The notes beneath the pieces are model-generated. The model was not told the origin of the DNA and ran no database searches. It saw only the letters and a list, made by a program, of their open reading frames with translations. The position numbers and the translations under genes were made by a program. Positions 5,529 through 29,876 of a DNA stretch of 64,000 nt are shown piece after piece. Numbering within the stretch: the first letter of the stretch is position 1; each line of letters opens with the position of its first letter. Where the stretch lies: assembly GCA_024958655.1 (NCBI GenBank), contig JANWUR010000009.1, positions 62,001 through 126,000 of the forward strand, read 5' to 3'. The DNA comes from Cyanobium sp. FGCU6. GTDB lineage: Bacteria > Cyanobacteriota > Cyanobacteriia > PCC-6307 > Cyanobiaceae.

Positions 5529-6059
5529 ATGCTGAATCCTTCCCAGGGCGCCGTCGCTGCCCCCAGGCTGCTGCCGCTGCTGTTGGCCCTGGCGGTCTCG
5601 CTGCCGACGCAGGTCCGCGCCCAGGCCCAGCCCTCCGCCGCGGAGGACGCCCGCAAGCCGCGGCCGCCAGGCCTGGTGATCCTGCAGGAGAAAGTGAGCA
5701 TGGCGGGCACCCAGGTGATCGGGGTGTTCGGGGCCATGGCCGATCCTTCCATTCCTGGGCTCTGGAGCGTGCGGGTGTGGGATGAGCGCCGGGATCAGGT
5801 GTTCGTGGCCACCGACAAGCTGCGCTGCTCGCCGGATGCCCCGATGCGCATCACCGGCCAGGGGGGGCAGGTGCTGATGCGCGAACTGAATCCGGGCGGT
5901 CCGATCACCCCGGCCAACCGCCTCGATCATCTGATCTGGTGGGCCGTGTGCCATCCCGAGCAGGCCGGGAAGGACCCTGCAGGCCTCTCGGCCCTGGCCC
6001 GCAGCCTCGGCTATCCCGGCACCCTGCCGGAGCGCGAGCAGATCCTGCCAGGGCGCTGA
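5529..6059 (+). CDS. Exported protein of unknown function
   Basis: This 176-residue protein begins with a typical Sec signal peptide: a hydrophobic core LLPLLLALAVSLPT followed by a cleavage-like AQA near residues 31-33. The mature part has two cysteines (LRCSPD and WAVCHPEQAG) that could form a disulfide. I do not recognise a domain. The ATG at 5529 is only 6 bp from the divergent desulfurase start, so either the transcript is nearly leaderless or the promoter lies inside the desulfurase gene. The long upstream open frame is antisense to that gene and is not counted. Confidence 0.65.
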   Translation: MLNPSQGAVAAPRLLPLLLALAVSLPTQVRAQAQPSAAEDARKPRPPGLVILQEKVSMAGTQVIGVFGAMADPSIPGLWSVRVWDERRDQVFVATDKLRCSPDAPMRITGQGGQVLMRELNPGGPITPANRLDHLIWWAVCHPEQAGKDPAGLSALARSLGYPGTLPEREQILPGR

Positions 6060-6117
6060 TCCATGGATGCGCGGCCCCCGGGCTGGCCGACGGGCGGATC
6101 GAGGATAGATTTCGCCC

Positions 6118-6900: not shown

Positions 6901-7373
6901 CGACTCCCTCCCGCGCCACCGCCGCAGCAGTTCTGGCCGCGGCTTCCCTGCTGTTTGTCGCTCCCCCCGAGGCCGGGGCCCAGCAGAACTGCCGCTTCCT
7001 GCTGCCCCTCGGCGGCGGCGGCGAGCCGGTGGTGAGCAAGCGCATCGGGCCCGACCGCCTGCTGGGCCGCACCAACTGGAACACCGATTTCATCGTCGAC
7101 CAGCCCTTCAGCAGCTACCGCTTCTTCTTCACCTCCGCCTCCAGCGAGCGGGCCACGTTCCCGGTGTCCGGCTTCATGCGTTTCACCGATGGCACCAGCC
7201 TGCAGGTCATCAATGAAGCCCCCACCTTTGAACCTGGCACGGGTCGCATGTTCGGGCCCTTCCCGGCCGTGCCCGGCAAGCGCACCAAGCTCATGAACTT
7301 CCGGGTGGGCTCCAGCACCCAGCCCGCCGCCCTCGGCTTCAGCTACCGGATCTCCGTTCAGGGGTGCAACTGA
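6897..7373 (+). CDS. Small exported protein of unknown function, coupled to the response regulator
   Basis: This 158-residue protein has a signal peptide (AAAVLAAASLLFVAPPEAGA, likely cut after Ala28). The mature region looks like a single beta-rich domain with Gly/Phe/Ser-rich strands and only two cysteines, Cys32 near the start and one at the very end (QGCN), which suggests a disulfide closing the fold. No known family was recognised. Its ATG overlaps the response regulator stop (ATGA), so the two are translated together and the regulator may govern its own operon. Confidence 0.72.
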   Translation: MTTPSRATAAAVLAAASLLFVAPPEAGAQQNCRFLLPLGGGGEPVVSKRIGPDRLLGRTNWNTDFIVDQPFSSYRFFFTSASSERATFPVSGFMRFTDGTSLQVINEAPTFEPGTGRMFGPFPAVPGKRTKLMNFRVGSSTQPAALGFSYRISVQGCN

Positions 7374-7395
7374 GTCCGCACCGGCTGCGCTCCTG

Positions 7396-8397
7396 ATGGT
7401 CGGGGACTGGCTGCCGCCCGCCCTCAACGGCGGCTGGATCTATCGCGACCGGATCCCCACCTCCTGGGATGGCGTGCGCGTCACGGCCTACTACGCCAGC
7501 TGCTACAGCCATTCGCCTCCCGGGGCCTGGGCACGGCGCCTGATCGCCGGCGAGATCGAGCGCAACGGCCGGCCGCTGCGGCGAGATGTGGCACTGGCGC
7601 CGGGCGATCGCCTGGCCTGGCATCGGCCCCCCTGGCGGGAGGAGGCCGCTCCGTCCCTGCCCCAACCTCTGCTCGACGACGGCGACCTGCTGGTGCTCGA
7701 CAAGCCCTCCGGCCTGCCCGTCCTGCCGGCGGGAGGCTGGCTGGAGCACACCGCGCTGCGCCAGCTCGAACAGCGGCATACAGACGATCCCGCAGGCCTG
7801 CCGCGGCCGGTGCACCGCCTCGGCCGCTTCACCTCCGGTCTACTGGTCTGCGCCCGCAGGCCGGCGTCGCGGGCCTGGCTCAGCGCTCTGCTGCGCGAGA
7901 GCACGGGGGGCCGCGGCGACGGCGGCATCCCGGATGGGGGGAGCTGCCGCAAGCTATATCGCGCCCTCACGACCCCGCTCCCCTCCCACCGGCCCTTCGC
8001 GCTCGGAGAAGCGGTGCCGATCTGCGTGCCGATCGGCCGGCAGGCCCATCCCCTGCTCGGCAGCCTGTGGTGTGCGGCCGCTCCGGAGGATCCGCAGGCC
8101 ATGCCGGCGCACAGCACCCTCACCCTGCTGGAGTGCCGGCCGGAGGGCGCCCTGGTGGAGGTGGCCATTGCCAGCGGCCGTCCCCACCAGATCCGCATCC
8201 ACACCGCCGTCCTCGGGGCCCCGCTCCTGGGCGATCCCCTTTATCTCCCCGGGGGCCTGGCCCGGGGAGAGGCGCTGCCCGGGGAGGGCGGCTATCTCCT
8301 CCATGCCCACCGGCTCCGCCTGCCGCTGCCCCATGGGCGGGAGCTGGAGCTGGAGGCGCCCCTGCCGCTGCGGTTGCGGCGGCAGGGGGAGGGCTGA
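7396..8397 (+). CDS. RluA-like RNA pseudouridine synthase with a glycine at the catalytic aspartate position
   Basis: The protein (333 residues) has an N-terminal S4-like segment (RLIAGEIERNGRPLRRDVALAPGDRLAWH), the LLDDGDLLVLDKPSGLPVLP motif and the C-terminal GRPHQIRIHTAVLGAPLLGDPLY of RluA-type synthases, which turn specific uridines in rRNA or tRNA into pseudouridine. The catalytic motif normally reads HRLDRxTSG; here it is HRLGRFTSG, with Gly143 encoded by GGC at 7822-7824 in place of the nucleophilic aspartate. A one-base change (GAC) would restore the standard residue. I recall a similar glycine in some plant and cyanobacterial members, but I am not certain of it. Activity is therefore doubtful. 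Confidence 0.82.
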   Translation: MVGDWLPPALNGGWIYRDRIPTSWDGVRVTAYYASCYSHSPPGAWARRLIAGEIERNGRPLRRDVALAPGDRLAWHRPPWREEAAPSLPQPLLDDGDLLVLDKPSGLPVLPAGGWLEHTALRQLEQRHTDDPAGLPRPVHRLGRFTSGLLVCARRPASRAWLSALLRESTGGRGDGGIPDGGSCRKLYRALTTPLPSHRPFALGEAVPICVPIGRQAHPLLGSLWCAAAPEDPQAMPAHSTLTLLECRPEGALVEVAIASGRPHQIRIHTAVLGAPLLGDPLYLPGGLARGEALPGEGGYLLHAHRLRLPLPHGRELELEAPLPLRLRRQGEG

Positions 8398-8405
8398 GGC
8401 GCCAC

Positions 8406-10331
8406 TCAGGCCCTGCCGAGGATGTGGGCCGCGAGGATGTCGCGGTTCACGGCCAGGTTGGCGGGCACGAAGTAGGAGCCGTGGGCGCAGCCCAGGTCGT
8501 AGCCCCAGAGCCGCCGCGGGCAGCCCACCGGCACCAGTTCCGTGCAGTCCTTCTGCACGGGGAAGCGGCTGCGCAGGGGGCCGCCCACCAGGTCGCCGCG
8601 GGCATCGAGGTTGACCCAGTTCCGCACCAGGGCCGGGTAGGCAGCCCGCCGTCCCCCGTCGGGCCGGTTCTCGGGCCTCAGGCTGTCCTGCACCGGGCCG
8701 ATCGATAGGGCGCTGCCGATCGTGAACCAGTTCGCCACCTGCCCGGCCAGCCCCCCGTTCTCCAGTTCGCGCAGCCCCTCATAGGCCACCACCGTTCCCC
8801 AGCTGTGGGACATCACGTCCACCGTGGTGCCGCTGGCGAGCAGGGGGCGCACCACGTCGGTGAAGCGCTGGAGGATCTGGCGCCGCTTCTCCGGTACCGC
8901 CATGTAGAGGAGGAAATCATCGATCGCCAGGCCACCGCCCCTGGCGCCGGGGGGCGGGTCGGCCCCCGGACCGGCCTCCTGGGCCCGCCGGTCCTCGATC
9001 ACCGCTTCGATCTCCCGGCGCAGCCGCTCCACCTCCTCGGCCACCGCGGCATCCCGGCTGCCTTCGAGACCCCGGTTCACCAGGTCGCTCCAGGTCACCT
9101 CCCACCGGTCCACACCGAGCGTGCCCCGGCCATAGGTGGTCCCCACGTGGGGAGCCAGCGACGTCCACCAGCCCTGGGACCAGCCGGGCCGGTGGGTGCT
9201 GATGCCGTGCACGCACACCAGCACCCGCTCGCCGGAGCGGGCCCCGGCCTCCTTCGCGGTGCCGGCCGCTGCGGCGGCCGCCTCCCCCGTCTCCAGGGCC
9301 AGCACGGTGTCCAGCAGGTGGCGGTAGGCCTGGATCAGTTCGTGCTGGATCAGGCGGCGCCCGTCGCCGTCGTCTGCCGTCTGTGCAGCGGCGGCCGGCA
9401 GGCTCGGCGCGACGAGGAGATCGGCATCCTCAGGGGGCGTATCCTGCCGCCCACCCCGGCCCGCCCCGAAGATCGGCCCCCGCAGCGCGCCTCCCTCGTG
9501 CACGGGCACCTGCTCATAGCTTCCACGCAGCCTGGCGGCCACGGCCTCGATCAGCGGCCGGCTGTCCAGGTCGCGCTGCTGCCGCAGCACCGCACAGAGG
9601 GCGGCGGTGAAGGCACCCTGGAACCGGCCGTCCACATAGGCATCGGCAGCCGTCTGATCCTCACGGCAGGCCATCAGGTTGAGGTTGCGGGCCTCCCGCA
9701 GCCGGCTGGGACGCAACGTCGGGGCTGGCCCGGCCCCCCGCAATCCACCACCGGGCAGATCGGGGGGAGCCAGGTAGCGGGCGTTGGTCACCTGCTCTTC
9801 GGTCACCGTTTCACCGGAGGGCACGGAACGGGAGCGGGGACCGTCGACGAGCACCTGCCGCGTCCGGCCCTCGGCGTCGAGCACCGTCATCGCCCGACTG
9901 CTGCCGCCGGAATGGCAGGTGTCCTTGATCACGATCAGGCGGGCCGCTTCATTCACCCTCTGCACCCAGGCGAACCACTCGTCGTCGCTGAGATACGTGC
10001 CCGGATTGCCGAAGTCCATGTCGGCCAGGCAGGTGATCTCGTCGCGCCCGTCGCCGGTCTCGTCGCCGCTGAGGTCGGGCACGTTCGAGCCGTGGCCGGA
10101 GATGTGGAACACCAGGGTGTCACCGGCGCCGGCTCCGGCGGTGAGCCACTGCCATTCCCGCTGCAGGTTGGTCTTCACCACCTCGGCGTCCCGCAGCAGG
10201 TGGATGTCATCCGGACGGAAGCCGTAGGTCTCGAGCAGCAGACGCCGCAGGTTCTCGGCGTCATTGATGCAGCCCTTCAGCGGGGCGGTCGCATAGGCGT
10301 TGATGCCACAGAGAACGGCTTTGCGTGCCAT
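8406..10331 (-). CDS. Caspase-like (metacaspase, peptidase C14) protein fused to an alpha/beta-hydrolase domain
   Basis: A 641-residue two-domain protein. Residues 1-290 are a metacaspase-type peptidase: MARKAVLCGINAYATAPLKGCINDA, the catalytic histidine His80 in HISGHGS and the catalytic cysteine Cys139 in DTCHSGG. Residues about 369-641 look like a lipase/esterase-type alpha/beta hydrolase: VCVHGI near 373-377, nucleophile Ser510 in MSHSWGT, candidate Asp576 or Asp580, and His617 in GCAHGSY. An acidic/Ala-rich linker and a charged helical stretch (about 425-455) lie between. Metacaspases cleave after Arg or Lys and are linked to stress responses or cell death in cyanobacteria. No signal peptide is seen, so it is probably cytoplasmic. 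The ATG at 10331 is chosen because the caspase fold begins there. Confidence 0.88.
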   Translation of the reverse strand: MARKAVLCGINAYATAPLKGCINDAENLRRLLLETYGFRPDDIHLLRDAEVVKTNLQREWQWLTAGAGAGDTLVFHISGHGSNVPDLSGDETGDGRDEITCLADMDFGNPGTYLSDDEWFAWVQRVNEAARLIVIKDTCHSGGSSRAMTVLDAEGRTRQVLVDGPRSRSVPSGETVTEEQVTNARYLAPPDLPGGGLRGAGPAPTLRPSRLREARNLNLMACREDQTAADAYVDGRFQGAFTAALCAVLRQQRDLDSRPLIEAVAARLRGSYEQVPVHEGGALRGPIFGAGRGGRQDTPPEDADLLVAPSLPAAAAQTADDGDGRRLIQHELIQAYRHLLDTVLALETGEAAAAAAGTAKEAGARSGERVLVCVHGISTHRPGWSQGWWTSLAPHVGTTYGRGTLGVDRWEVTWSDLVNRGLEGSRDAAVAEEVERLRREIEAVIEDRRAQEAGPGADPPPGARGGGLAIDDFLLYMAVPEKRRQILQRFTDVVRPLLASGTTVDVMSHSWGTVVAYEGLRELENGGLAGQVANWFTIGSALSIGPVQDSLRPENRPDGGRRAAYPALVRNWVNLDARGDLVGGPLRSRFPVQKDCTELVPVGCPRRLWGYDLGCAHGSYFVPANLAVNRDILAAHILGRA

Positions 10332-10437
10332 GGGTGAAGCAGGGGTTGATCTTCTCCCTGTAGCCATGGGGTGGAGGTGCGTCCATGGCTGGAGCACGGA
10401 CGCTTCGAACCGCTGCAGTTCGCTGCCTTCGAGCGCG

Positions 10438-11169
10438 TCAGCCGCGCTCGAAGGCGATCAGGCGTGAGAAGTAGAAGGGGGCCTGGTTGAGGCTGCGCCG
10501 CACCGGGCGGAACCCGCAGGAGGCGGCCGTCGCCACGATCCCCTCCTCGCGCAGGGTATAGGCGCGGGTGGTGCGGCTGGGGCCGGGGAACAGCTGGCCG
10601 ATGCTCTTGAGGATTGCCAACAGCGGCGTGTAGGGCGCGAAGCTCACGATCAGGTGGTGCTCGGCCAGGCCGGCCAGGTGCCGCACCATCTCCTCGGCGG
10701 CCGGCTGCGGGTAGTGGATGAAGACATCCAGGCAGATCACGGTGTCGAAGCGGCCCTGCAGGCTCTCGAGATCGGAGGCGCCGAAGCGCAGCCGCTCCGC
10801 CGGGATGCCCGCCTCCCGGGCCCGCCGTTCGGCCTCGCTCACCATCGCTTCGGAAAGATCGCTGGCCTCCACGGAGCCGGCGCCCATGGCCGCCAGTGGA
10901 ATCGCCAGGCTGCCCACGCCGCAGCCCGCATCGCAGAAGCTGCGGCCGGCCAGGTCGCCCTGCTCCTCCACCCAGTGCAGCACCTCGTCCACCGTCTTCT
11001 GGTGGCCGAGGCGAATGTTGCGCTGAACGTTGTTGACCTCGTCGCTGTCGCTGTAGATGCGCTTCCAGCGCTCGAAGCCGGTGCTTTCGAAGTAGCCCTT
11101 CACCTCGGCCTTCTCGGTCGCCTTCGGGCAGTCGGCCGGCGCGATGGACGGCTCCAGGTCGGCGGGCAT
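10438..11169 (-). CDS. chlM: Magnesium-protoporphyrin IX methyltransferase
   Basis: ChlM/BchM transfers a methyl group from S-adenosylmethionine to the propionate of Mg-protoporphyrin IX, an early committed step of chlorophyll synthesis. The 243-residue protein carries the family signature KGYFESTGFERWKRIYSD and VNNVQRNIRLGHQKTVDEVL, the SAM-binding loop FCDAGCGVGSLAIPL, and the C-terminal APFYFSRLIAFER. The ATG at 11169 gives the usual length. It lies downstream of nagA on the same strand with a gap of about 45 bp. Confidence 0.95.
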   Translation of the reverse strand: MPADLEPSIAPADCPKATEKAEVKGYFESTGFERWKRIYSDSDEVNNVQRNIRLGHQKTVDEVLHWVEEQGDLAGRSFCDAGCGVGSLAIPLAAMGAGSVEASDLSEAMVSEAERRAREAGIPAERLRFGASDLESLQGRFDTVICLDVFIHYPQPAAEEMVRHLAGLAEHHLIVSFAPYTPLLAILKSIGQLFPGPSRTTRAYTLREEGIVATAASCGFRPVRRSLNQAPFYFSRLIAFERG

Positions 11170-18196: not shown

Positions 18197-19189
18197 TCAG
18201 GGTAAAAGCCCTCCAAGGCGCCTGCGGGCGGCGCTCACGATCCGCTCGGACAGGGGCCTGGTCTGCGCCTCTGGTGGCAGCGACGGGGGTTCGGAAAAAT
18301 CCAGACCTTCGCCCACCCGATAGGGCGCCATCGCCCGGTGGGCGGCCGCGGCCGTGTAATGGCAGACGTAGGAGCGGCGGGTGAGGTCTGGGTTGCGCAT
18401 CGGCGTGCCGCCGTGGATCAGGGCGCCGTGCCAGATCAGCAGGTCGCCACGGCGGGGCAGGTAAACACTCGGCTCCCATCCCTGACTCTGGATCAGATTA
18501 TCGAGATAGAGCCCATAGTTGATGGCTATTTGATTGTCGCAGTCCCGGCCGGCAAGGATGTTGCCACCGCCCCAGTCGAAGAACTGCTGGTCTGTGAGGA
18601 GATGGGAGCCTTTGTAGTAAACGAGTGGTCCTGAATCTGGATGGATGTCCTCGAGGGGGATCCAGGCAGCCGCTAAGTGGCCGAGCCTATGGTGATGATG
18701 AACGAAGGAAAAATCCTGATGGAGGCTTTGTTCGCTGCTCTTCCAGAACGTGAGGGATTGAATCAGGGCGGATTCGGATCCGAAGAGTTCATCCAGGAAG
18801 CAGATGATCGGCGCGGAAAATGCCAGCGCCCGTGCGGATGCAAAGTAGCGGTGGAGGTCGTTGAGCTTGAGTCCGGGAGGGGCCTGGCGAAAGTCGGTGA
18901 TTCCCAGATTCGTAAGATTGCGGAGCACTCTGGCTTTGTAGTGCTCTGCTTTGCCGTCAACGCCAATCAGCCCATGGACCAGTGAACTTTCCGCGAGCGC
19001 TGGCAGGTTGTTAAGGTCGTCATCGTAGCGGTCCAGAAGACCGGAATCGATCACCTGGGGCAGGATGACGACTCCATCTCGCAGGAAGTCAAGAATTTGC
19101 GATGAGTAGATTTTCGGTGGGAGTTCGGGTTGATCGCGATGGAGCTGCTCCGACAGGGTGAGGGAAGAGAGATAGTCGTTCGGAAGCAT
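18197..19189 (-). CDS. Phytanoyl-CoA dioxygenase (PhyH) family non-haem iron oxygenase
   Basis: This 330-residue protein has the Fe(II)/2-oxoglutarate oxygenase signature of the PhyH family: His157 and Asp159 in SLHQDFSF, the core LAAAWIPLEDIHPDSGPLVYYKGSH, and the distal histidine (His259) in GDLLIWHGALIHGGTPMRNP followed by RRSYVCHYT. The family hydroxylates lipids or secondary metabolites; no substrate can be proposed. The 5' two thirds are visibly AT-richer than the flanks, which suggests transfer. It lies 101 bp downstream of the methyltransferase gene. Confidence 0.85.
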   Translation of the reverse strand: MLPNDYLSSLTLSEQLHRDQPELPPKIYSSQILDFLRDGVVILPQVIDSGLLDRYDDDLNNLPALAESSLVHGLIGVDGKAEHYKARVLRNLTNLGITDFRQAPPGLKLNDLHRYFASARALAFSAPIICFLDELFGSESALIQSLTFWKSSEQSLHQDFSFVHHHHRLGHLAAAWIPLEDIHPDSGPLVYYKGSHLLTDQQFFDWGGGNILAGRDCDNQIAINYGLYLDNLIQSQGWEPSVYLPRRGDLLIWHGALIHGGTPMRNPDLTRRSYVCHYTAAAAHRAMAPYRVGEGLDFSEPPSLPPEAQTRPLSERIVSAARRRLGGLLP

Positions 19190-19290
19190 GTGCCTGTCGA
19201 TGCTGCCGCCACGTTAGCCCGCCAGGATCAGCTCGGACTGCTGTTTTTGCCTCCTGTCAGGGTTGATTCCAGCGGCGCTCGTGTAGGGCT

Positions 19291-20118
19291 TCACCGGCTG
19301 CCTGGTGCCGGGCCGGGCTTGCGCGCCCAGCCAAACACCAGATGGCGCTTCAGCTGAATGCCTTCCTCATCGGTATGGGCCGCGAGGGCATCGCGCAGGG
19401 GTTGCTGCAGGGGGCCCTCGAGGTCGAGGTGGGGCAGGAAGTTGCCGAAGTAGGAACTCTGATTCCACCGCAGCAGGTGCTCCAGATCGACGAAACGGTC
19501 GTGGAAGCGGACCGGGCTGATCCGGATCCTCTCGAAGCCGGCCTGATTCAGCAGCTGCTGGAGGCGCTCCTCGTTGATCCGGTGGGGGGGCACCAGTCCC
19601 GCCTGATCCTTCACCCCCTGGCGGGCCAGGGCTCTGCTGAGCAGGGCGACGAACTCATGGGGCCGGTCGGGGTCGGCGCTGTTCACCGCCAGCTGGCCTC
19701 CAGGCTTCAGCACGCGCCTTGCCTCGGCCAGGGCCGCGGCTTGATCGGCGATCCAGTGCAGCACGCTGTTCATCACCACGGCATCGACGTGATCGTCGGG
19801 GATGTCCGTGAGGTTTTCGGCCCATGCCTGGATCACCCGAACCTGCCCGCCGTCGCCTGCCCTGGCGCGGGCCCGCACCACCCGATCGGCGAGGGGCTCC
19901 ACGGCCAGCACCTCACCAGCCGCCCCCACCCATTCGGCCAGGTGCAGGGACAGGCGGCCCGTGCCGGCTCCCACGTCCAGCACCCGGTCGCCAGGTCGCA
20001 GCCTCAGCTCCGCCACGAGCTGCTTGCCGTGCTCGAACTGGAAGTCGCTGCCGGTGTCGTAAGCGCTGGCCAGGTCGGCCGTGTCGTGGGCGTAGGAGAC
20101 CGGGGAGGGCTCAGGCAT
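19291..20118 (-). CDS. Class I SAM-dependent methyltransferase
   Basis: This 275-residue protein (278 from the GTG at 20127) has methyltransferase motif I DRVLDVGAGTGRLSLHLAE, an acidic post-I motif LAVEPLAD, and EARRVLKPGGQLAVNSADP. It is UbiE/Methyltransf_11-like but cannot be tied to quinone synthesis because the specific ubiE motifs are missing. It follows the SfnB-like gene by about 27 bp on the same strand and may form an operon with it and the ssuA-like gene. Confidence 0.85.
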   Translation of the reverse strand: MPEPSPVSYAHDTADLASAYDTGSDFQFEHGKQLVAELRLRPGDRVLDVGAGTGRLSLHLAEWVGAAGEVLAVEPLADRVVRARARAGDGGQVRVIQAWAENLTDIPDDHVDAVVMNSVLHWIADQAAALAEARRVLKPGGQLAVNSADPDRPHEFVALLSRALARQGVKDQAGLVPPHRINEERLQQLLNQAGFERIRISPVRFHDRFVDLEHLLRWNQSSYFGNFLPHLDLEGPLQQPLRDALAAHTDEEGIQLKRHLVFGWARKPGPAPGSR

Positions 20119-20145
20119 CGCGGGCACAGGGGGGCGGGTGAGGGA

Positions 20146-21390
20146 TCAGAGGTAGAAGTCGGGCGCCGGCAGCTGCCGCCTCAGACCCCAGGCCCCCAGA
20201 GCCTCCACCTTGCGGGTGTCGGGATCATGCAGGCTGAGCGTGCGCAGGTTGCGCCAGTGGCGATCGAGCCCCAGGCTGCGGCTGACGCCGCGGGCGCCCA
20301 CCAGCTCGAACAGGCGGCTGGTGATCGCCAGGCCCGCCCGGGAGGCCGTCACCTTGGCGGCGGCGATCTGCACGGCACAACGGCCCCGCTCCTCCGCCGT
20401 GATATCAGGGCCCTTCTCCCAGGCCTGCTGGAGCGGCAGCGCCGCCTGTTCCACCAGGGCGATGGCGGCCTGGAGCTGCAGCCAGAGCTCGCCGAACAGC
20501 TGGATCACATGGGGATCCCCGCAGCGGCTGCTGGCGGCCGGGGAGCCGGGTCCAGGATCCGGTTGCCCCAGCAGGACGGTCCGGGCTTCCTCCAGGGCCC
20601 CTTCGGCGATCCCCAGGAAGATGTGGGCCAGGTTGAGCTGGGTGAGGCAGGCCCGGAACGTCCGGAACGGGCTGGGCGCCGCGCTGCGGCTGCCCAGCAC
20701 CTCCTCGCGCAACACCCGCACCGCTTCGAAGCGCACCGAGCCGCTGTCGGTCTGGCGCTGGCCGATCGCGTCCCAGTCGTGCTGGAGCTGGATGCCCTCG
20801 CGATCAGCGGGCAGGACCACCACCACCAGATCGCCGCTGGCCGGGTCCACCGCGCCGACCGGCAGGATCTCGGCGTCGTGGGAGCCTGAGCAGAAGCGCT
20901 TCACGCCCTCGAGCCTGAACTCGCTGCCATCGGCCACCAGCACAGCGCGGCGATCGAGGGGGTTGAGGGCATTGCCCCACCACCAGCCTTCGCGGACCGT
21001 GGCCGTTTCGAAGTGGACCCGCTGCTGCTCGCTGCCGAAGAGATGGGGGATGACCACCCCGAGGTTGTGGTACGAGTAGACATGCGCCAGGGAGGCATCC
21101 ACCCGGGCCAGTCGGCGCGAGAGATCAAAGGCGGTGACCCAGCTGGCGCCCTGGCCGCCCCTTTGCCTGGGGATCATCAGCGTCAGCAGGCCTGCCGACC
21201 GGATGCGGTCCCGCTCGGCCTTCGGAGTTCCCCCCTGCTGGTCGCGGGCCACGGCCGTGCTTCTGAACTCCTCGACCAGTTCGTCGATCAGCACCCGGGG
21301 GTCGGACGGGGCCGCCGCCGGGGCGGCCGGTGATGCAAGCGATTCCGGCACCGCTTCAGGGGCCCAGATCGACGACGATGTCGGAGACAC
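20146..21390 (-). CDS. Acyl-CoA dehydrogenase-fold flavin monooxygenase, SfnB/DszC-like
   Basis: A 414-residue protein of the acyl-CoA dehydrogenase superfamily in the branch that includes SfnB and DszC, which use reduced flavin to oxygenate organosulfur compounds rather than dehydrogenating acyl-CoA. Visible features are LVEEFRSTAVARDQQGGTPKAERDRIRSAGLL, IPRQRGGQGASW, SYHNLGVVIPHLFGS, and the C-terminal LFELVGARGVSRSLGLDRHWRNLRTLSLHDP typical of this branch. The GTG start lies 35 nt inside the upstream ssuA-like gene, which implies coupling. No flavin reductase gene is adjacent. Confidence 0.82.
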   Translation of the reverse strand: MSPTSSSIWAPEAVPESLASPAAPAAAPSDPRVLIDELVEEFRSTAVARDQQGGTPKAERDRIRSAGLLTLMIPRQRGGQGASWVTAFDLSRRLARVDASLAHVYSYHNLGVVIPHLFGSEQQRVHFETATVREGWWWGNALNPLDRRAVLVADGSEFRLEGVKRFCSGSHDAEILPVGAVDPASGDLVVVVLPADREGIQLQHDWDAIGQRQTDSGSVRFEAVRVLREEVLGSRSAAPSPFRTFRACLTQLNLAHIFLGIAEGALEEARTVLLGQPDPGPGSPAASSRCGDPHVIQLFGELWLQLQAAIALVEQAALPLQQAWEKGPDITAEERGRCAVQIAAAKVTASRAGLAITSRLFELVGARGVSRSLGLDRHWRNLRTLSLHDPDTRKVEALGAWGLRRQLPAPDFYL

Positions 21391-22384
21391 GGATCGGAGC
21401 GGGGATCAGTTTGAGCTTGACGAAGGCATCAGCCAGCCTCTGCTGATCCCGCAGTCCCCCCGGCTGAATCGGGGACACCTGATAGCGGCCGAGGCGCCGC
21501 CGCTCCGAAACCTCGAGCACCGGCAGGGGCACCTTGGTGGCTTCGGACAGGAACCGGGCTGATTCCCCTGGGTTCCTGAGGGCCCACTGGCCCGCCGCCC
21601 GCAGGTCGCGGATCAGGGGCTGCAGCAGCCCGGGGTTCGCGTCTGCGAAATCGCTGTTGGCCAGAAAGTAGAGGCGGAAGCTGGTGAGTCCCCGGCCATT
21701 CACCAGCACGCGGGCATTGCCCCCGACCTGGGCGGCGGCATAGAAGGGATCCCAGACAGCCCAGGCATCGAGCTTGCCGGATTCGAAGGCCACCCGGCCC
21801 TCGGGCGGCTGTAGATAGACGGGCGTGATGTCGGACAGCTTGAGATCGGCTCTGGCCAGCGCATTCACCACCAGCGGAACGGCGCTGGACCCCTTGGCGA
21901 ACGCCACCTTCTTGCCCCGCAGATCAGCAACGCTGCGGATCGGGGAGTTCTGTCGCACCAGGATGGCGACGGCTTCCGGGTTGGGCTGGGACTGGCCGAA
22001 GTACACGACCGGTGCCTTCTTCGACTGGGCGAAGATCACCGGCGCATCGCCTGTTTCTCCCACATCCACCTTGCCGGCGGCCAGGGCCTCCAGCAGGGGT
22101 GGTCCGGAAGTGAATTCCGCCCAGGTCACCTTGATGCCCTGGCGTTCGAGGCGTCGGGCCAGATCGCCGCGGGCGCGCAGGATATTGAAGGTGGATGATT
22201 TCTGCAGGCCCACCCTCAGCACCTTCGTCTGCACCTGATTGGCGTTGCGGGCGGCGGCCAGGCCAGCCAACCCCCCCACGCCGGCCAGAAGGCCCGTGCT
22301 CCCCAGCAGGGCCCCCAGGGAGATCAGCAGTCTCCGGCGCGTCGAGGTGGGGCCGGACGGACGGGCTGGCGAAGATTGGGGCAT
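21356..22384 (-). CDS. SsuA-like aliphatic sulfonate ABC transporter substrate-binding protein
   Basis: The protein (342 residues from the ATG at 22384; 348 from an ATG six codons upstream) opens with an Arg-rich stretch and hydrophobic segment TSTRRRLLISLGALLGSTGLLAG, a secretion signal. The mature domain has LRVGLQKSSTFNILRARGDLARRLERQGIKVTWAEFTSGPPLLEALAAGKVDVGETGDAPVIFAQ, the classic SsuA/TauA/NMT1 sequence that binds sulfonates or related anions in the periplasm. The permease and ATPase (SsuC, SsuB) are not in the window. It overlaps the SfnB-like gene by 35 nt and is divergent from the broken amidohydrolase. Confidence 0.88.
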   Translation of the reverse strand: MPQSSPARPSGPTSTRRRLLISLGALLGSTGLLAGVGGLAGLAAARNANQVQTKVLRVGLQKSSTFNILRARGDLARRLERQGIKVTWAEFTSGPPLLEALAAGKVDVGETGDAPVIFAQSKKAPVVYFGQSQPNPEAVAILVRQNSPIRSVADLRGKKVAFAKGSSAVPLVVNALARADLKLSDITPVYLQPPEGRVAFESGKLDAWAVWDPFYAAAQVGGNARVLVNGRGLTSFRLYFLANSDFADANPGLLQPLIRDLRAAGQWALRNPGESARFLSEATKVPLPVLEVSERRRLGRYQVSPIQPGGLRDQQRLADAFVKLKLIPAPIRVSDIVVDLGP

Positions 22385-22561
22385 GGAGGAAGGACGCGGC
22401 AAATCTGGAGGCGTTTCTGGGCAGGCGTTGCCGGATGTGGTGTGCCTCAGGTGGTGTTGAGTGCCTGATCTGTCCCCGGGAAGGTGTAAGCCCGGACTGT
22501 CAGTTCAACTCCTCTGGAACGCCTGCAATCAGCCCCGACCCTGGCAGCGCGCCTTGGGGCC

Positions 22562-22583
22562 CGGTGTGCCTCGAGGCACACCG
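22562..22583. promoter_or_regulatory. Perfect 22-bp palindrome, candidate operator
   Basis: The left half CGGTGTGCCTC is followed immediately by its exact reverse complement, giving an uninterrupted 22-bp palindrome. It lies in the 248-bp region between the divergent ssuA-like gene and the amidohydrolase remnant, 49 bp before the latter's ATG. No T-run follows, so a dimeric repressor or activator site is more likely than a terminator. No adjacent regulator gene is visible. Confidence 0.55.
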
Positions 22584-22632
22584 ATCAGGCGCCGCTGGCA
22601 CCCACAGTTGTTCTGATTTCCTTCCTGCCTGC

Positions 22633-23439
22633 ATGGCCGCCGGTGTGCCGTTACTCGCTGATCACCATCCGGCCGATCAGCAGCAGATGGCGGAGGTGGA
22701 GGCTCACTTCCGCTCCGCGAGCAAGAAGCTGGGCCGGTCGTACTTCGTGATCGATTGCGACCGCCACATCATCGAACCGCCGGAAGCCTTCACGCGCTAT
22801 CTCGATCCGCAATGGTGCGATCAGGCTCCGCGTCTGGTCCGTGACAACCGCGGTGCTCCCCGACTGATGATCGAGGGCTGTCTGGCAGACCATGGAGGAC
22901 CTGGGCATGGCGCTGGTCTTCCATGAGGCGACGGGCACCTACAACGCCACCTACAGCACCGATTACAAATTCGACCGCTACTGGCTGGCCCATGCCGTCT
23001 CCCATCCGCTGGAGATGGCCACCGCCCTTTCGGCGATCATCGGCTATGGGGTGCTCGAACGCCATCCTCGCCTTCAGGTGCTGTTCTGCGAAGGCGGGGC
23101 CACCTGGGTTCCCTATATGCTCTTTTTCGCCTCGACAATCACTATCAGGCCAGACCCAGTGAAATGGAGGATCTGACGATCCCTCCCTCCGATTACTTCC
23201 GGCGCCAGTGCGTGATCTGCTCCTTCGAGCCCGAGGAGGCCCTGTTGCGCGAAACCATGGCCTGGCTCGACGGCCGCCACATGGCCTGCACCAGCGATTA
23301 CCCCCACTGGGACTCCAGCGGGGTCTCCGGGGTGGTGCGCTATCTGGAGAACTATCCCGAGATCAGTGAGCAAACGCGGGTGAATTTCTTCTCGCGCAGC
23401 GCGATCCATGCCCTGGGCCTCCAGGCTCGGATGCGATGA
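22633..23439 (+). pseudogene. Broken TIM-barrel amidohydrolase (amidohydrolase_2 family)
   Basis: Three pieces of one metal-dependent hydrolase lie in different frames. Piece 1 (22633-about 22880) gives YFVIDCDRHIIEPPEAFTRYLDP with the DxxxH-like opening. Piece 2 (from about 22880, WQTMEDLGMALVFHEATGTYNATYS, RYWLAHAVSHPLEM, GVLERHPRLQVLFCEGGATWVPYML) is in the next frame. Piece 3 begins after a one-base loss in a run of five Ts at 23123-23127 and continues RLDNHYQ to ACTSDYPHWDSS, ending at 23439. A central segment of roughly 100 residues seems to be missing at the first junction. The gene therefore looks inactivated by an internal deletion plus frameshifts, although the T-run shift alone could be a sequencing error. 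The stop overlaps the Rieske gene start (ATGA). Confidence 0.8.
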
Positions 23440-23795
23440 GCGCCTCCTCCCACGAATCTCTGCCCCGGGGCCCGCTCGAGCGGCTGGCGCTGGACCTGGT
23501 CTCCGACGTGAACCTGCCGGAAGCCGGCGCCATCGTGGAGGTGACCGCTCTCGATGGCCGGCAGGTCTGCCTGGCCCGGCTCGCCGGTGGTGAGCTGACC
23601 GCGTTCGAGCCTCGCTGTCCCCATCGCGGTGTGCCCCTCTGCCATGGGGGGCTGGAGGGGGAGCAGGTCATCTGCCTCGAGCATTTCTGGCGCTGGCAGG
23701 TCCGCGACGGTCAGCCCCTGGGCTCCGGCCATCCGCCCCTGGGCACCTATCGCGTGGATCCGCAGGGCCAGCGGCTGATGCTGCTGCCGGTCTGA
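23436..23795 (+). CDS. Rieske [2Fe-2S] ferredoxin-like protein
   Basis: This 119-residue protein has the two Rieske ligand motifs: Cys61-Pro-His63 (RCPHRGVPL) and Cys80-Leu-Glu-His83 (CLEHFWRW), and no catalytic domain. Free-standing Rieske ferredoxins pass electrons to ring-hydroxylating oxygenases or similar enzymes. Its ATG overlaps the stop of the amidohydrolase remnant, so the two were once one operon. Translation may now suffer because the upstream reading frame is broken. No terminal oxygenase is seen. Confidence 0.87.
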   Translation: MSASSHESLPRGPLERLALDLVSDVNLPEAGAIVEVTALDGRQVCLARLAGGELTAFEPRCPHRGVPLCHGGLEGEQVICLEHFWRWQVRDGQPLGSGHPPLGTYRVDPQGQRLMLLPV

Positions 23796-23830
23796 GGGGC
23801 CCTGGCCCGCCCGCACCTGCGCCGCTGCCC

Positions 23831-24064
23831 CTACTGCTGCACCGGCAGCGGCACCGGTCCCACCGTGCGGGTCCCGGTGCGCATCGAGCAGCGGCCGGAC
23901 CCCTCAAGGCCGTGCTGGGCTTCGAAGCGCTCGATCCCCTCCAGCAGCCAGCGCTCGCGGAGCGTCGCCTCCGCGATCCCCGCATGGGCCGCGGCAGCAG
24001 CGATCCGGGCGGAGAGGGCCGGGGCTTCCGTCGCGGTGTCGGGGACTGGGATCGGAGACGTCAT
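23831..24064 (-). CDS. Small conserved-looking protein of unknown function
   Basis: A 77-residue frame divergent from trpB, starting at the ATG at 24064. It has a Pro/Thr/Ala-rich head, a helical centre (SARIAAAAAHAGIAEATLRERWLLEGIERFEAQHG) and a Cys plus Pro-rich tail. The helical segment has a charge pattern typical of a real protein. I recognise no family, and the assignment is tentative. Confidence 0.45.
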   Translation of the reverse strand: MTSPIPVPDTATEAPALSARIAAAAAHAGIAEATLRERWLLEGIERFEAQHGLEGSGRCSMRTGTRTVGPVPLPVQQ

Positions 24065-24195
24065 GGCCGGGCGAAGGGCGACAGCGTTGCTGACATTGTG
24101 CGCCCACCGGGCCCCGGGGCGCCGCTCCCTGCGATCAGGATTGCCGTGATCGGGGGGGGCTATGCCTACGCTGGATCGATCCCGCCCCGCCGCCG

Positions 24196-25479
24196 GTGAC
24201 CAGCACCGCCCCCTCCACCAGCCTCCATCCGAGCGGCACCGGCACCGATCCCTCCGCCCTTGCACCGTCAGTCCGCCCCGATCCCCTCGGGCGCTTCGGG
24301 GCCTTCGGCGGCCAGTACGTGCCGGAAACCCTGATGCCCGCCCTGGCGGAGCTGGAGACGGCCGCCGCCGCGGCCTGGGCCGATCCCGCCTTCACCGAAC
24401 GGCTCAATCACCTGCTGCGCCACTACGTGGGCCGGCCCAGCCCTCTGTACGAGGCCGAGCGCCTCACGGAGCACTACCGGCGGCCCGAGGGGGGCCCCCG
24501 TATCTGGCTGAAGCGCGAAGACCTCAACCACACCGGCGCCCACAAGATCAATAACGCCCTCGGCCAGGCCCTGCTCGCCCTGCGGATGGGCAAGCAGCGG
24601 ATCATCGCCGAAACCGGCGCCGGCCAGCACGGCGTCGCCACCGCCACCGTGTGCGCCCGCTTCGGCCTGGAGTGCGTGATCTACATGGGCGCCGAAGACA
24701 TGCGCCGCCAGGCCCTGAACGTGTTCCGCATGCGCCTGCTGGGGGCCACGGTGCAGCCGGTCACCGCCGGCACCGCCACCCTCAAGGACGCCACCAGCGA
24801 GGCGATCCGCGACTGGGTGACGAACGTGGAGAGCACTCACTACATCCTCGGTTCGGTGGCCGGGCCCCATCCCTACCCGATGCTGGTGCGCGATTTTCAC
24901 GCCTGCATCGGCCTGGAGGCGAAGCAGCAGTGCGCCGAGGCCTTCGGCCGGCTGCCGGATGTGCTCGTGGCCTGTGTGGGCGGAGGTTCCAACGCCATGG
25001 GGCTGTTCCATCCCTTCGTGCAGGACACCTCCGTGCGCCTGATCGGCGTGGAGGCCGCCGGCGATGGGGTCGCCACCGGCCGCCATGCGGCCACGATCAC
25101 CGAAGGCCGGGTGGGGGTGCTGCACGGCGCCATGAGCCTGCTGCTGCAGGACGCTGAGGGCCAGGTGCAGGAGGCCCATTCGATCAGTGCCGGCCTCGAC
25201 TACCCCGGCGTGGGGCCGGAGCACAGCTACCTGAAGACCATCGGCCGCGCCGAGTACGGCGCCGTCACCGACGAGGAGGCGCTGGCGGCCCTGCAGCTGC
25301 TCTGCCGCCTCGAGGGCATCATCCCGGCCCTGGAAACGGCCCACGCCTTCGCCTGGCTGGAGAAGCTCTGCCCCACTCTTGCCCCCGGCACCGAGGTGGT
25401 GGTGAATCTCTCCGGCCGCGGCGACAAGGACGTCAACACCGTGGCCGACCGGCTGGGCGGTGCCTTGGGGAGGGGGTGA
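24196..25479 (+). CDS. trpB: Tryptophan synthase beta chain
   Basis: TrpB condenses indole and serine to tryptophan using PLP. The 427-residue protein shows [19 protein letters not shown], the PLP lysine in [32 protein letters not shown], and the [13 protein letters not shown] phosphate-binding loop. The GTG at 24196 gives a 30-residue variable N-terminus. trpA is not adjacent, as is usual in cyanobacteria. Confidence 0.97.
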
Positions 25480-25604
25480 AGGCCCAGCACGGAGCTTCCC
25501 CAGCAAGGGGCAATACTAGTGACTGTTGATTGGAAAAGCTGCTGCGCCAATTCTTCTGGCGGTAGAGCAGTAGAGGGTTCTCCATGTTTTTCACGCTGCT
25601 GTGA

Positions 25605-27638
25605 CTACCGTAAGACTCCTGTCGTTCTCAGTTTCCGAAGAATCACGTCACCAGCCATGAGGGCTGCTTCAACGGATGGATGTCCATTGCCATCGCGATA
25701 AAGCATGGTTCCATCCAGGCTCTGAAAAGTGCAACGATCTTGTGGGCAGAACAAAGGCATTAAATCAATGACAATCACTCCCTGACTTCTCTCCAGGCGG
25801 GCGAGTCCTCTGGTTAGTGGTGCCATCCTTGCAGTCGTGTATTGTTTGCTATGAAATAAGCATGGCCCGCCAAACCCATTGAACCATTGTTCTTGTGCCA
25901 CGTTTGGCATGCAACCTGATTCACGAATGAATGGAGTCGCGTTGATGATCGCAAGAGATTGGCCCCGAGCCTTGAGTTCTCGTCCTAGCGAAGCCAGGCC
26001 TGTATTGAGCTGAGCCAGAGTGGCCGATGCTGGCGCGTTGATGTCATGAGGCAGTAATAAGCCAAGTTCATTCACGATTAACACTATATCCCCCTTGTGT
26101 AATTGCAAAAGAAGATCAGGTACCACTTTGCTCCAGTAATAATCATTGGCTTTGGCCCATGGAGTCTTGTTGGCTATCTCTGCTACCGGAGATGAGCCAT
26201 AGCTTGCCACAATGATTACATCTGTCCTGCCTCCAGAAGTCAGTTTCGCAAGGCCAGGCACCATTGCTGCAGCAACGGAATTCCCTAGAACAAGGATCTT
26301 GCGATTTGAAGTAACATTACTACCAAGAGTGCAATCAGCACGATTAATCTTCTTGCCAACATCCTGATTGCTGGCAAGCAAGCAATCCTCCCCCATCCAG
26401 CCTTTGTTGCTGGTGCCTTGGATGCGATAGGGTGTTGAAAGTGCTGGTTGATTGACCAAACCCTTTATGGACTTATCGCCAGTATACAATGTTCTGTCTG
26501 GCAATATTCCTATTCCAATTTGAGCAGCGGAGGCTAAGGCAACCGAAATGAAGCCAATACGAATATCTCCAAGGGTTGTTTGAGACCAGTTAGCTTTCCT
26601 TAAAGGCTGTTCAATCCAGTAGTAGGATGCTAAAGAAAGAAGCAGAACTGCTGCCAATTGAAAGGGTGCCGTCCATGGATGAATACCTACCGTCCATCGA
26701 CTTATTACAAGTACACTCCAGTGCCAAAGGTACAGTGAATAAGATAGCAACCCTATTTTGCGAATGGGAGATACTGAAAGAATATTCGCAGCCAGTTGCC
26801 CTTTTTTAAGAGATCCAATGGCAAGCATGGTGAGTAAAGCAATCAAAATTGTATTCAGCACCTCTGCTTCTTTAGGGCGATTCAATACTGTAATAATTAG
26901 CCCAAGAAAGAGCAGAGACAGGATTGGTCTTAACCGTTGCAGCAACTGAGGTTGCCGTGAGCCTAAGGTGCCCAAAATGCTGATTACGCAACCCAAGCCG
27001 ATTTCCCAGAAGCGGTATGGTGTTAGAAAATATGCGGCCGAAGGATTTGTTTCATAAAAACTGATGAAAAGTAACAAGGAAGCAAGACTTAAAACAGTGA
27101 TGGCGAATAAAAGTCTGTTGACATTCTTCGCACTGTGTAGATTTCGCGTAACAAAAATCCAGAATAAAAATGGATAGAGAAGATAGAATTGCTCCTCAAC
27201 TCCAAGAGACCAAGTGTGAGTAAATCCATTAAGCTCATTCAGAGGTGAAAAGTATGAAAGTGATAGTGAATAAAGATAGATGTTTGACGCCCCAAAGATG
27301 CTTGTCAGCCCTGTTCGCAGCGTTACCCCAGGACTGGGATCAAATAAACATAAAATCAGGCTTGTTATCAATACACAGGCAATCAATGCAGGCAGTATGC
27401 GCTTGAAGCGGCGTGCATAAAATCCCTGAATAAAATCAACAAAGTTTTTGCAAGGCCTTCTGGTTAATGATTCGGTAATGACATAGCCGGATATTACAAA
27501 GAATATGTCAACACCAAGATACCCGGATGACAGTAAGCGGGAGTTGAAATGATTGATAATGACGGCTATGACAGCCAAGGCCCTTAGTCCGTCGATCTCA
27601 CTGCGATACGAAGCATTGGAACCATTAATGTGAGACAT
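25605..27638 (-). CDS. Acyltransferase-3 (OafA/YrhL-like) with C-terminal SGNH-like domain, copy 1
   Basis: A 677-residue membrane acyltransferase. Residues 1-350 have the acyltransferase-3 signature: EIDGLRALAVIAVIINHFN with the expected His30, GYLGVDIFFVISGYVIT, YARRFKRILPAL and HTWSLGVEEQFYLLYPF. About ten membrane helices are expected. A C-terminal extracytoplasmic SGNH-like domain begins near VLGNSVAAAMVPGL, where the usual GDS is GNS, and ends with DGNGHPSVEAAL. Such proteins O-acetylate surface polysaccharides. The gene is AT-rich relative to its neighbours and lies 5 bp downstream of a clear paralogue on the same strand. Confidence 0.9.
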   Translation of the reverse strand: MSHINGSNASYRSEIDGLRALAVIAVIINHFNSRLLSSGYLGVDIFFVISGYVITESLTRRPCKNFVDFIQGFYARRFKRILPALIACVLITSLILCLFDPSPGVTLRTGLTSIFGASNIYLYSLSLSYFSPLNELNGFTHTWSLGVEEQFYLLYPFLFWIFVTRNLHSAKNVNRLLFAITVLSLASLLLFISFYETNPSAAYFLTPYRFWEIGLGCVISILGTLGSRQPQLLQRLRPILSLLFLGLIITVLNRPKEAEVLNTILIALLTMLAIGSLKKGQLAANILSVSPIRKIGLLSYSLYLWHWSVLVISRWTVGIHPWTAPFQLAAVLLLSLASYYWIEQPLRKANWSQTTLGDIRIGFISVALASAAQIGIGILPDRTLYTGDKSIKGLVNQPALSTPYRIQGTSNKGWMGEDCLLASNQDVGKKINRADCTLGSNVTSNRKILVLGNSVAAAMVPGLAKLTSGGRTDVIIVASYGSSPVAEIANKTPWAKANDYYWSKVVPDLLLQLHKGDIVLIVNELGLLLPHDINAPASATLAQLNTGLASLGRELKARGQSLAIINATPFIRESGCMPNVAQEQWFNGFGGPCLFHSKQYTTARMAPLTRGLARLERSQGVIVIDLMPLFCPQDRCTFQSLDGTMLYRDGNGHPSVEAALMAGDVILRKLRTTGVLR

Positions 27639-27643
27639 ATATA

Positions 27644-29830
27644 CTACTGAATTCGGGGTGTTAATACTGATTTTACGTCAGACTTTGATGGCTGTTCCCT
27701 GCCTGGTTTGATGGCTGCTAACAGGGCGTCAAAGAAAAGGTCGTGACCGTAGGGGGTTAAGTGATGATCATCGCTATACAAAAATTTGTTTGCTTTTGTC
27801 AGGATGCATTTATTCTCGGAATTGCAGATATAAGGGCGCAGTGAAATATATTTGTGTGGAGACCATGATCCAGCGATGTGCTGCAAGTGGGAGTCAAGCT
27901 TAGTAAAATAAATTGAGAGTTGCCCATTGTTCAAGTCTAGATCTTCCTTGCGGTTCCATGCATTGAACCACTCGGGCCGCAAAGCCATCAACTCCTGTGT
28001 GGACAGTGTGGGATTGGGGCCAACCACCACTACCCTAGCCCCGCGTTCAGAAATTCTAGCAAGAAAGCTTTGTAATGCCTTGTCGTAGGCATCAGGCCTC
28101 GGCTGGGTATGACCGGTGGGATACCTAACATAGCTGCGATTGGGAAGATGTATTCTCAGCAGCACCACATCTCCTGGTCGCAGAGACTTCAGAAGCGCTG
28201 CCTCGAGAAGGTCTTCATCGATGTAGCGGCAGGATGGGAAGCTGGGATTGAAGATCAGGCTTGAACGCAGTGGGTAGGGGCAGCCATAGCCAAAGATGGC
28301 GCCAAAGCCATGGTCGGTTTTGACAGAAATCAGTGCTGCATGGGGGAGGAGTTTTTCTGCGAAGCTGTCGCCAACCACAATCAGGTTGGGCTTGGTGGTC
28401 CTCGCTTCCTCGGGTCCACGGATGCACTTCTGGATGAAGGGCTCATCGACAGGGCCCGTGAGTTGTCTGCTGTTTTGACCCAGAAGAAATGGGGTGATGT
28501 TGCAATCAAGCATGTGCTTGTCAGCCATCGACTTGGCGAGTAACAAGTCTTTGTCATTGCTTTTCGCTTCTACCACCCCCGAGACCATGCGCTTCTGTTC
28601 GGCTGCTCGCCCGCCGTTACCGAGAAAAAGCTTGCCTTCCAAGGGCCTGCCGAGCGTGATCAGTGCCACTATTCCTGCCAAAGTTGCCAACAGCCCCTTG
28701 ACCAAGGTCAGCCACTCAAAGCGGCTCCATTGGACATGCCTCAGTGGCTTCTCGATGCCGTAGTAGGAGATGGTGGCTAACACAATCATAATCAATAGCT
28801 GAAAAGGCCAAGTCCACCATTGAATGCCAATCGTCCATCGGCTAAGGCTGATAATCGACCAGTGCCAGAGATAAAGGGAATATGAAATCAAGCCAATCCA
28901 GACTGCGAGCGGGTTCGCCAGCAGTGACATGACTAATTGATTGGATCGGACTGTTGCGATCAGGATCGTTGTCAGTGCGATCACGGAAATGGTGGCGAAT
29001 ACTGCATGGTCCTGAGATGCATGAAAGACCAGAAAGAAGCCGATTACTGAAGCCAGGGGTAGGCCCGATCTAAGTCGCAGGCCCAGCTTTTTGGAGCCAT
29101 TGATTTTCTGCTCAGCAATCGCCAGCAGGCAGCCGCTTCCCAACTCCCAGAAACGAGCAGGCATCAAAAAATAAGCGGCGGATGCGTTAACCGCATAGGC
29201 GGCACTGAAGGCAATTAATGATATGACGGAAAGGGCAAATATGATAAAGAAGAGCTTTTTTTGGGCCTGGGGCTTGGTTTGATTGATATTCACTTGATCA
29301 CCTGCCCAGAAGCCAGCCACAAGGAGAAGTGCTGGAAAGATCAGGTAAAACTGCTCTTCAACTCCAAGCGACCATGTCTGGGTAAACATATTCATCTCGC
29401 TTGAGGGTGCAAAATAGTCGGTTGACTGAGAAAACAGGTAGAGATTGGAAAGCCCCAAAAGAGCGAAAAGCCCTGTCTGCAGCGAGACTCCTGGAGCGGG
29501 GTCAAAAAAGCAAGCAATGATCGCCGTCACGACAACGCAGAACACAAGCGCCGGCACGAGCCTTTTGATGCGGCGTGCATAGAAGCCGACGATTCCCTGG
29601 CGAAATGACTGCTGCTTCCGCTTGAGTAGCGACTTGGTGATCACGTAACCTGAAATCACAAAGAAGATGTCTACTCCGAGGTAGCCACTTGGAAGCAGGC
29701 TGGCATTGAAATGGTTAATGATGACTGCGATTAACGCCAGTGCACGCAAGCCATCCACTTCCGGCCTGTATGTAGCTCCTGAGGCCTCTGGGCTAACCTG
29801 TTCAAGCCTGATTGGTGAAGTCATTGACAT
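27644..29830 (-). CDS. Acyltransferase-3 (OafA/YrhL-like) with C-terminal SGNH domain, copy 2
   Basis: A 728-residue paralogue of the preceding protein, with the same order of motifs: EVDGLRALALIAVIINHFN, GYLGVDIFFVISGYVIT, YARRIKRLVPALVF, TQTWSLGVEEQFYLIFP. The C-terminal SGNH domain is complete by eye: nucleophile GDSFAEKLLPH and the late DDHHLTPYGHDLF carrying the Asp/His pair. It should acylate a sugar on the outer face of the membrane. The gene is AT-rich. The ATG at 29830 is 47 bp downstream of the anbu gene end, all on the minus strand. Confidence 0.91.
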   Translation of the reverse strand: MSMTSPIRLEQVSPEASGATYRPEVDGLRALALIAVIINHFNASLLPSGYLGVDIFFVISGYVITKSLLKRKQQSFRQGIVGFYARRIKRLVPALVFCVVVTAIIACFFDPAPGVSLQTGLFALLGLSNLYLFSQSTDYFAPSSEMNMFTQTWSLGVEEQFYLIFPALLLVAGFWAGDQVNINQTKPQAQKKLFFIIFALSVISLIAFSAAYAVNASAAYFLMPARFWELGSGCLLAIAEQKINGSKKLGLRLRSGLPLASVIGFFLVFHASQDHAVFATISVIALTTILIATVRSNQLVMSLLANPLAVWIGLISYSLYLWHWSIISLSRWTIGIQWWTWPFQLLIMIVLATISYYGIEKPLRHVQWSRFEWLTLVKGLLATLAGIVALITLGRPLEGKLFLGNGGRAAEQKRMVSGVVEAKSNDKDLLLAKSMADKHMLDCNITPFLLGQNSRQLTGPVDEPFIQKCIRGPEEARTTKPNLIVVGDSFAEKLLPHAALISVKTDHGFGAIFGYGCPYPLRSSLIFNPSFPSCRYIDEDLLEAALLKSLRPGDVVLLRIHLPNRSYVRYPTGHTQPRPDAYDKALQSFLARISERGARVVVVGPNPTLSTQELMALRPEWFNAWNRKEDLDLNNGQLSIYFTKLDSHLQHIAGSWSPHKYISLRPYICNSENKCILTKANKFLYSDDHHLTPYGHDLFFDALLAAIKPGREQPSKSDVKSVLTPRIQ

Positions 29831-29876
29831 TTGATCGTTGTTTGTTGCCGGCTTGCTGAGCGCTCCTGCTGGCGCC

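Follow-up and report, generated by a model that had tools for sequence, protein, structure and literature searches.

Amidohydrolase-fold oxygenases that work with Rieske proteins (AROs) have been defined, and found through neighbouring Rieske genes, in a study that counts very few of them as described so far (PMC10811679). One of them, SfbO, releases sulfoacetaldehyde by dealkylation of the sulfonate buffers MES and PIPES (PMC10811679). Another, AibH1H2, is a 2-aminoisobutyrate monooxygenase that is served by AibG as Rieske ferredoxin and AibF as reductase (PMC7782822, PMC10401708); among 555 AibH2-like proteins, a small Rieske protein was reported to be adjacent for 90% (PMC10401708). LynB7 and BarH are relatives tied to cyanobacterial peptides, LynB7 being itself cyanobacterial (PMC10127204). 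For Vulcanococcus limneticus LL, the cultivated strain that carries the closest intact counterpart of the locus below, the genome paper mentions sulfonate transporters and alkanesulfonate monooxygenases, and the words "amidohydrolase" and "Rieske" have 0 occurrences in its main text (PMC5902973).

The ARO with its Rieske partner is thus a known kind of system, and the locus described here is probably a broken further member of it. It lies in a 64,000-nucleotide stretch of Cyanobium sp. FGCU6, called the window. We consider it likely that the window carries a recently inactivated ARO gene and its Rieske partner inside an inserted, probably horizontally acquired and probably organosulfur-related cassette, whose other four genes are open. 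The features are as follows (L047 denotes the V. limneticus LL locus).

19190–24195, no strand: insertion carrying the cassette, ~4.9 kb with approximate ends, between a PhyH-like gene and trpB
19291–20127, minus: SAM-dependent methyltransferase (PF08241, E=2.3e-21; 71% to L047)
20146–21390, minus: SfnB/DszC-like flavin monooxygenase of the acyl-CoA dehydrogenase fold (NF043015, E=3.5e-94; TIGR04022, E=7.3e-71)
21356–22402, minus: SsuA-family aliphatic-sulfonate ABC substrate-binding protein (TIGR01728, 220.2 bits, cut-off 163.5; 76% to L047)
22633–22884, plus: putative ARO gene, piece 1, with the N-terminus and barrel strand 1, ligands D-x-H (VIDCDRHIIEP); aligns to L047 up to base 7577
22880–22884, plus: deletion junction, a single GTCTG against two copies 416 bp apart in the intact homologue; ~138 codons gone
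22883–23125, plus: putative ARO gene, piece 2, in the other frame (WQTMEDLG...PYMLF), with His and Glu ligands; 80 codons compared with L047
23123–23127, plus: T-run with the frameshift, where DNA alignment gives a net +2 bases relative to the intact homologue
23128–23439, plus: putative ARO gene, piece 3 (RLDNHY...SDYPHWD...LGLQARMR), with the last Asp and His ligands; 103 codons compared with L047
23436–23795, plus: small Rieske [2Fe-2S] ferredoxin-like gene, intact (PF00355, E=1.1e-11), with an ATGA overlap with the ARO gene

As the preliminary description of this DNA had proposed, the three pieces are the remains of one gene in their original order. They occupy two frames, pieces 1 and 3 sharing one and piece 2 being shifted. 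An uninterrupted homologue was found in V. limneticus LL (L047:7269-8546, 425 aa), and both lesions could be placed against it. The pieces match this protein in order at 55.8% (the N end, a segment running past the junction), 96.3% and 85.8% identity, which excludes a chance match; taken separately, they gave no Pfam match at E 0.01. The DNA aligned in two blocks by blastn, window 22696-22884 with L047 7389-7577 and window 22880-23796 with L047 7989-8891, so that window base 22884 pairs with 7577, base 22880 pairs with 7989, and 416 bp of L047 are missing with a 5-bp overlap. The central deletion suspected near 22875-22885 is therefore real relative to L047 and has its junction at 22880-22884. 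Because GTCTG stands at both of its ends in L047 (7573 and 7989), the simplest mechanism for the loss would be a deletion between these 5-bp direct repeats. The deletion spans residues ~104-241 of the L047 protein, in which strands 152-157, 193-198 and 220-223 are predicted, and by our reading of the model it would have taken out strands 2-4 of the eight-stranded barrel.

The second lesion turned out differently from the early proposal of a one-base loss in the T-run at 23123-23127. The DNA alignment with L047 gives a net gain of two bases instead. A one-base loss is less likely, as it implies an extra residue that is absent from three intact close homologues (L047, L048 and L049), all of which read P-Y-(M/F)-L-F-R at this place. 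Together, the 416-bp deletion between the short repeats and the T-run frameshift would have put the oxygenase out of action, with the remaining four genes left open. The alternative of programmed frameshifting, or of a functional split or shortened protein, draws on a net length difference divisible by three and on pieces 1 and 3 lying in one frame; however, the first frame stops at 22924, ahead of the second shift, and ~138 codons with the predicted strands 2-4 are absent. Recoding would be unable to restore the protein because the deletion takes these three strands, and we regard this alternative, which the preliminary description had also raised, as hardly credible.

To estimate the age of the break, dN/dS was calculated piece by piece against L047 (NG86). 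The values were 0.19, 0.02 and 0.11 for pieces 1, 2 and 3 and 0.108 for all together; those of the neighbouring genes were 0.17 (SsuA-like), 0.30 (SfnB/DszC-like), 0.39 (methyltransferase) and 0.54 (Rieske). With L048 as the outgroup, 10 amino-acid and 27 silent changes fell on the window side and 8 and 31 on the L047 side (253 codons, 19 amino-acid positions unassignable), so that amino-acid changes are not in excess in the remnants (10 versus 8). Judged from these substitutions, constraint on the ARO gene probably lasted for almost the whole period since its divergence from L047. Since there is no excess, the lesions are either recent or artefacts.

The second possibility, that a chimeric join at the 5-bp repeat and a homopolymer miscall have disguised a gene that is really intact, is unlikely in our judgement. 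T-runs and short repeats are where errors typically arise, and remnants without relaxed selection are what a truly intact gene would leave. On the other hand, two errors would be needed inside one 0.8-kb gene, and in a filtered comparison with two genus relatives none of the coding-like window frames was split over two frames (0/36 and 0/33), so a frameshift-ridden assembly was not seen. In-frame stops occurred in 4 of the 36 and 5 of the 33 frames; going by coordinates, these are antisense to a longer ORF, precede a start, or come 18 bases short of an end. An unfiltered count flagged more ORFs for stops or two frames (6/28 and 7/20), many of which are probably antisense frames, as a high-GC genome has them. 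Its two-frame matches lay at 11.2-14.3 kb and 4.4-6.9 kb of the window; the former came from what by eye is a NagA-like gene together with an antisense stretch, and the latter still stands. We retain the apparently recent decay of one gene, whose frame is disrupted relative to intact homologues.

What did the intact gene encode? The label "amidohydrolase" given to it at first is probably misleading. The intact proteins of L047-L049 do match PF04909 (Amidohydro_2) at 49.2-52.2 bits (gathering cut-off 26.4), and the best PDB match by sequence is PtmU3 (E=7.7e-26). A PDB search with a profile built from the three sequences returned PtmU3, 8sm9, 4dzi, 8sm6 (SfbO), DitZ, 8sm7 and AibH2 as the first seven, five of which are described as AROs (PMC7782822, PMC10401708, PMC10811679). 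The entry 4dzi, which was among the top matches by both sequence and fold, is an uncharacterised protein. DitZ is named here after the title of its PDB entry. The L047 protein, modelled with AlphaFold2 (39 sequences, pLDDT 82.6, pTM 0.86), gave a similar picture. PtmU3 was first in Foldseek and is the closest solved fold (TM 0.70/0.83, Z 37.7); ranks 1-21 were AROs, AibH1H2 chains, DitZ or 4dzi, and decarboxylases began at rank 22. In VIA-align the same kinds of entries filled rows 1-13 at Z 33.3-37.7, with decarboxylases from Z 31.7. On the model, the fold alone thus separates AROs from decarboxylases weakly (33.3 versus 31.7).

AibH2 binds its metals through D25, H27, H211, E265, D337 and H340 (PMC7782822). 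By alignment their counterparts in L047 are D62, H64, H255, E311, D379 and H382, and D342 of AibH2 corresponds to D384; all six ligands are kept in the window remnants. The full seven-residue signature DHHEDHD was present in 111 of 125 aligned ORFs. The other 14 were seven window fragments, two truncated ORFs, one with E for D384, and four distant outgroups (L131-L134) in which H and Y replace E311 and H382. We take these four to be decarboxylase-like from their motif. Conservation of the six dinuclear ligands, the ARO-led sequence and fold matches and the Rieske neighbour lead us to read the product of the intact relatives as probably a dinuclear oxygenase of the amidohydrolase fold that would take electrons from a Rieske protein, rather than a hydrolase. 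In these relatives a two-metal site (Fe2 or Mn/Fe) within the PF04909 fold may oxidise a small molecule, and electrons would reach it from the small Rieske protein of the overlapping gene.

That partner is intact, as the preliminary description had said. The Rieske frame has 119 aa and, read from the sequence, keeps CxH-x16-CxxH. Its homologue in V. limneticus LL (L047:8543-8890, 62% identity) follows the oxygenase gene with the identical ATGA overlap. An adjacent small Rieske ferredoxin, as AROs have it, was found in the window and L047, and also in L049, a gammaproteobacterial MAG in which oxygenase, double-Rieske and ferredoxin-reductase-like genes stand in a row; in the close homologue L048 the nearest Rieske-like ORF lies 6.9 kb off, beyond the 4-kb range. 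On a haloarchaeal plasmid (H8), an amidohydrolase and a Rieske protein are annotated side by side. Of the 80 homologue loci kept, only two, L047 and L049, had a Rieske-motif ORF distinct from the oxygenase and no more than 4 kb away, some loci being cut by contig ends; a third Rieske-motif match, in L126, overlaps the oxygenase ORF itself.

Three points speak for an ordinary PF04909 hydrolase or decarboxylase with the Rieske gene as an accidental neighbour: 78 of the 80 loci lack such an ORF within that distance, the Pfam family is named Amidohydro_2, and decarboxylases share the fold with Z up to 31.7. It is nevertheless quite improbable, given that all six dinuclear ligands are kept whereas the outgroups L131-L134 carry H and Y for E311 and H382, that oxygenases were the best matches by sequence, profile, Foldseek and VIA-align, and that the ATGA overlap with the Rieske gene is kept in two genera, next to the gene row of L049. 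More generally, a gene that is named "amidohydrolase" and overlaps one for a Rieske protein probably encodes an oxygenase.

Several other copies were seen in the course of this comparison. The loci L050-L125, many and mostly cyanobacterial, are ~31-36% identical and keep the dinuclear ligands, with no Rieske-motif ORF within 4 kb. One homologue ORF, in Cyanothece sp. UBA12306 (L100, 8049-8531), is only 160 aa long well inside its contig and is perhaps another broken copy. The genome of Cyanobium sp. FGCU6 itself has a distant paralogue (L044, G000:C63:20407-21006) with a 349-aa open frame and 27% identity to the L018 protein.

Compared with the described systems, the locus shares with SfbO and other AROs the PF04909 fold, the conserved ligands and the small Rieske gene beside; it differs from SfbO in its low identity (21-22% in fold alignments), in the two sulfate-binding arginines and in that the window copy is broken. 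Among the residues with which SfbO binds sulfate, both arginines, R232 and R235, are not conserved, W341 is conserved, Y280 could not be placed and N67 lies outside the alignment; an SfbO-type sulfate pocket was rejected on the two arginines. AibH1H2-AibG-AibF likewise pairs an amidohydrolase-fold oxygenase having the same ligand set with a Rieske ferredoxin, but no counterpart of AibH1 or AibF was seen in the window cassette. PtmU3 of the platensimycin pathway has the same fold and ligands, with a biosynthetic substrate and 23-24% identity (fold alignments). LynB7 and BarH also share fold and ligands and differ in having biosynthetic substrates.

The five genes occupy window 19291-23795. The methyltransferase, SfnB/DszC-like and SsuA-family genes share one strand, opposite to that of the oxygenase and Rieske genes. 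V. limneticus LL has the full set in the same order and on the same strands, there intact and next to cobA- and nirA-like genes (by eye), whereas the window cassette adjoins trpB. The four window genes other than the oxygenase have full-length frames like those of L047. The host, probably a picocyanobacterium, has a genome of 4.07 Mb and belongs to the same family as V. limneticus LL. Across 300 genomes of this family, cassette DNA was present in three: the host's own, that of V. limneticus (G556, which carries the L047 protein at 100%), and one (G463) with the SsuA-like gene only. In the last (L145, 6687-7613), this gene is 76% identical and the other cassette genes were unmatched in the 12.7 kb examined.

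The empty site is preserved in two syntenic genus relatives, in which window 19189-24245 corresponds to 165 bp (G008) and 19192-24242 to 159 bp (G018). As the matching places are only ~160 bp apart there, ~4.9 kb are extra in the window. No convincing flanking repeats or tRNA were found as an insertion footprint, and the G+C of the cassette is 0.68, that of the window 0.67. Near relatives yielded only 30-51 bp DNA matches to 22630-23800, in 9 of 59 genomes other than the host's own. A homologue scan with two peptide patterns, which was not exhaustive, confirmed 377 loci, of which 80 were kept; outside the family the nearest oxygenase homologues were betaproteobacterial (81%) and from the gammaproteobacterial MAG (72%), and the other 77 of the 80 loci had 34-47% identity in the best segment. 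Because the closest outside homologues are beta- and gammaproteobacterial and the remaining 77 loci are so much more distant, the cassette was probably acquired horizontally.

A role in scavenging an organosulfur compound is probable from the neighbour genes, namely the SsuA-family and SfnB/DszC-like ones, and from a paralogous trio beside ssu genes in V. limneticus. There (L147, G556:C12, 923-11035), ssuA-ssuD-ssuC-ssuB-like genes and a further SsuA-like gene are followed by SfnB/DszC-like, methyltransferase-like and SsuA-like genes with 40-45% identity to those of the window. The inserted cassette of methyltransferase, SfnB/DszC-like, SsuA-family, ARO and Rieske genes would thus help to scavenge such a compound. 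The matches to the two known families have limits: the SsuA-family protein is below the NF008588 cut-off (242.4 of 299 bits), and the flavin enzyme, called "-like" for this reason, misses both equivalog cut-offs (315.9 of 850 bits for NF043015 and 239.1 of 430.9 bits for TIGR04022). Against a sulfur role speak the unconserved SfbO arginines and the surroundings of L049, which adjoins a TctC-type uptake protein, and of L048, which does likewise by eye, with no sulfur genes beside. The preliminary description had suggested that a degradation pathway for an aromatic or sulfonated compound was in the process of being lost. One gene has indeed decayed and the sulfonate link is plausible, but with the remaining four genes of full length, a loss of the entire pathway is not supported.

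One possible interpretation, which we offer tentatively, is that the cassette is an unrecognised picocyanobacterial organosulfur module, in which the SsuA-family protein would deliver a sulfonate- or sulfone-type compound for oxidation by an ARO with its own Rieske donor, next to the SfnB/DszC-like flavin enzyme; such a module would move between genera and could lose its oxygenase step. A search of the open PMC literature, with subscription papers outside its scope, found no description of this cassette or its loss. The cassette offers a substrate lead, organosulfur compounds, together with an intact version in a cultivated strain. To judge from the window copy, the cassette can lose its oxygenase and yet keep its other genes.

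A separate organosulfur locus is present elsewhere in the host genome (L146, G000:C41:66000-85000, at 5635-9865). It encodes an SfnG dimethylsulfone monooxygenase (609.9 bits, cut-off 382.95), an SsuE-type FMN reductase, an SsuA-family protein and a second SfnB/DszC-like protein.

Elsewhere in the window, a 663-aa ORF at 8406-10397 is caspase-like by eye and lies in a stretch (8361-10442) that did not align to the two relatives. A second insertion was seen beside trpB, since window positions 25459 and ~29870 are only 25-32 bp apart in both syntenic genus relatives; this interval, at 25460-29868, holds two tandem genes of 677 and 728 aa that are acyltransferase-like by eye.
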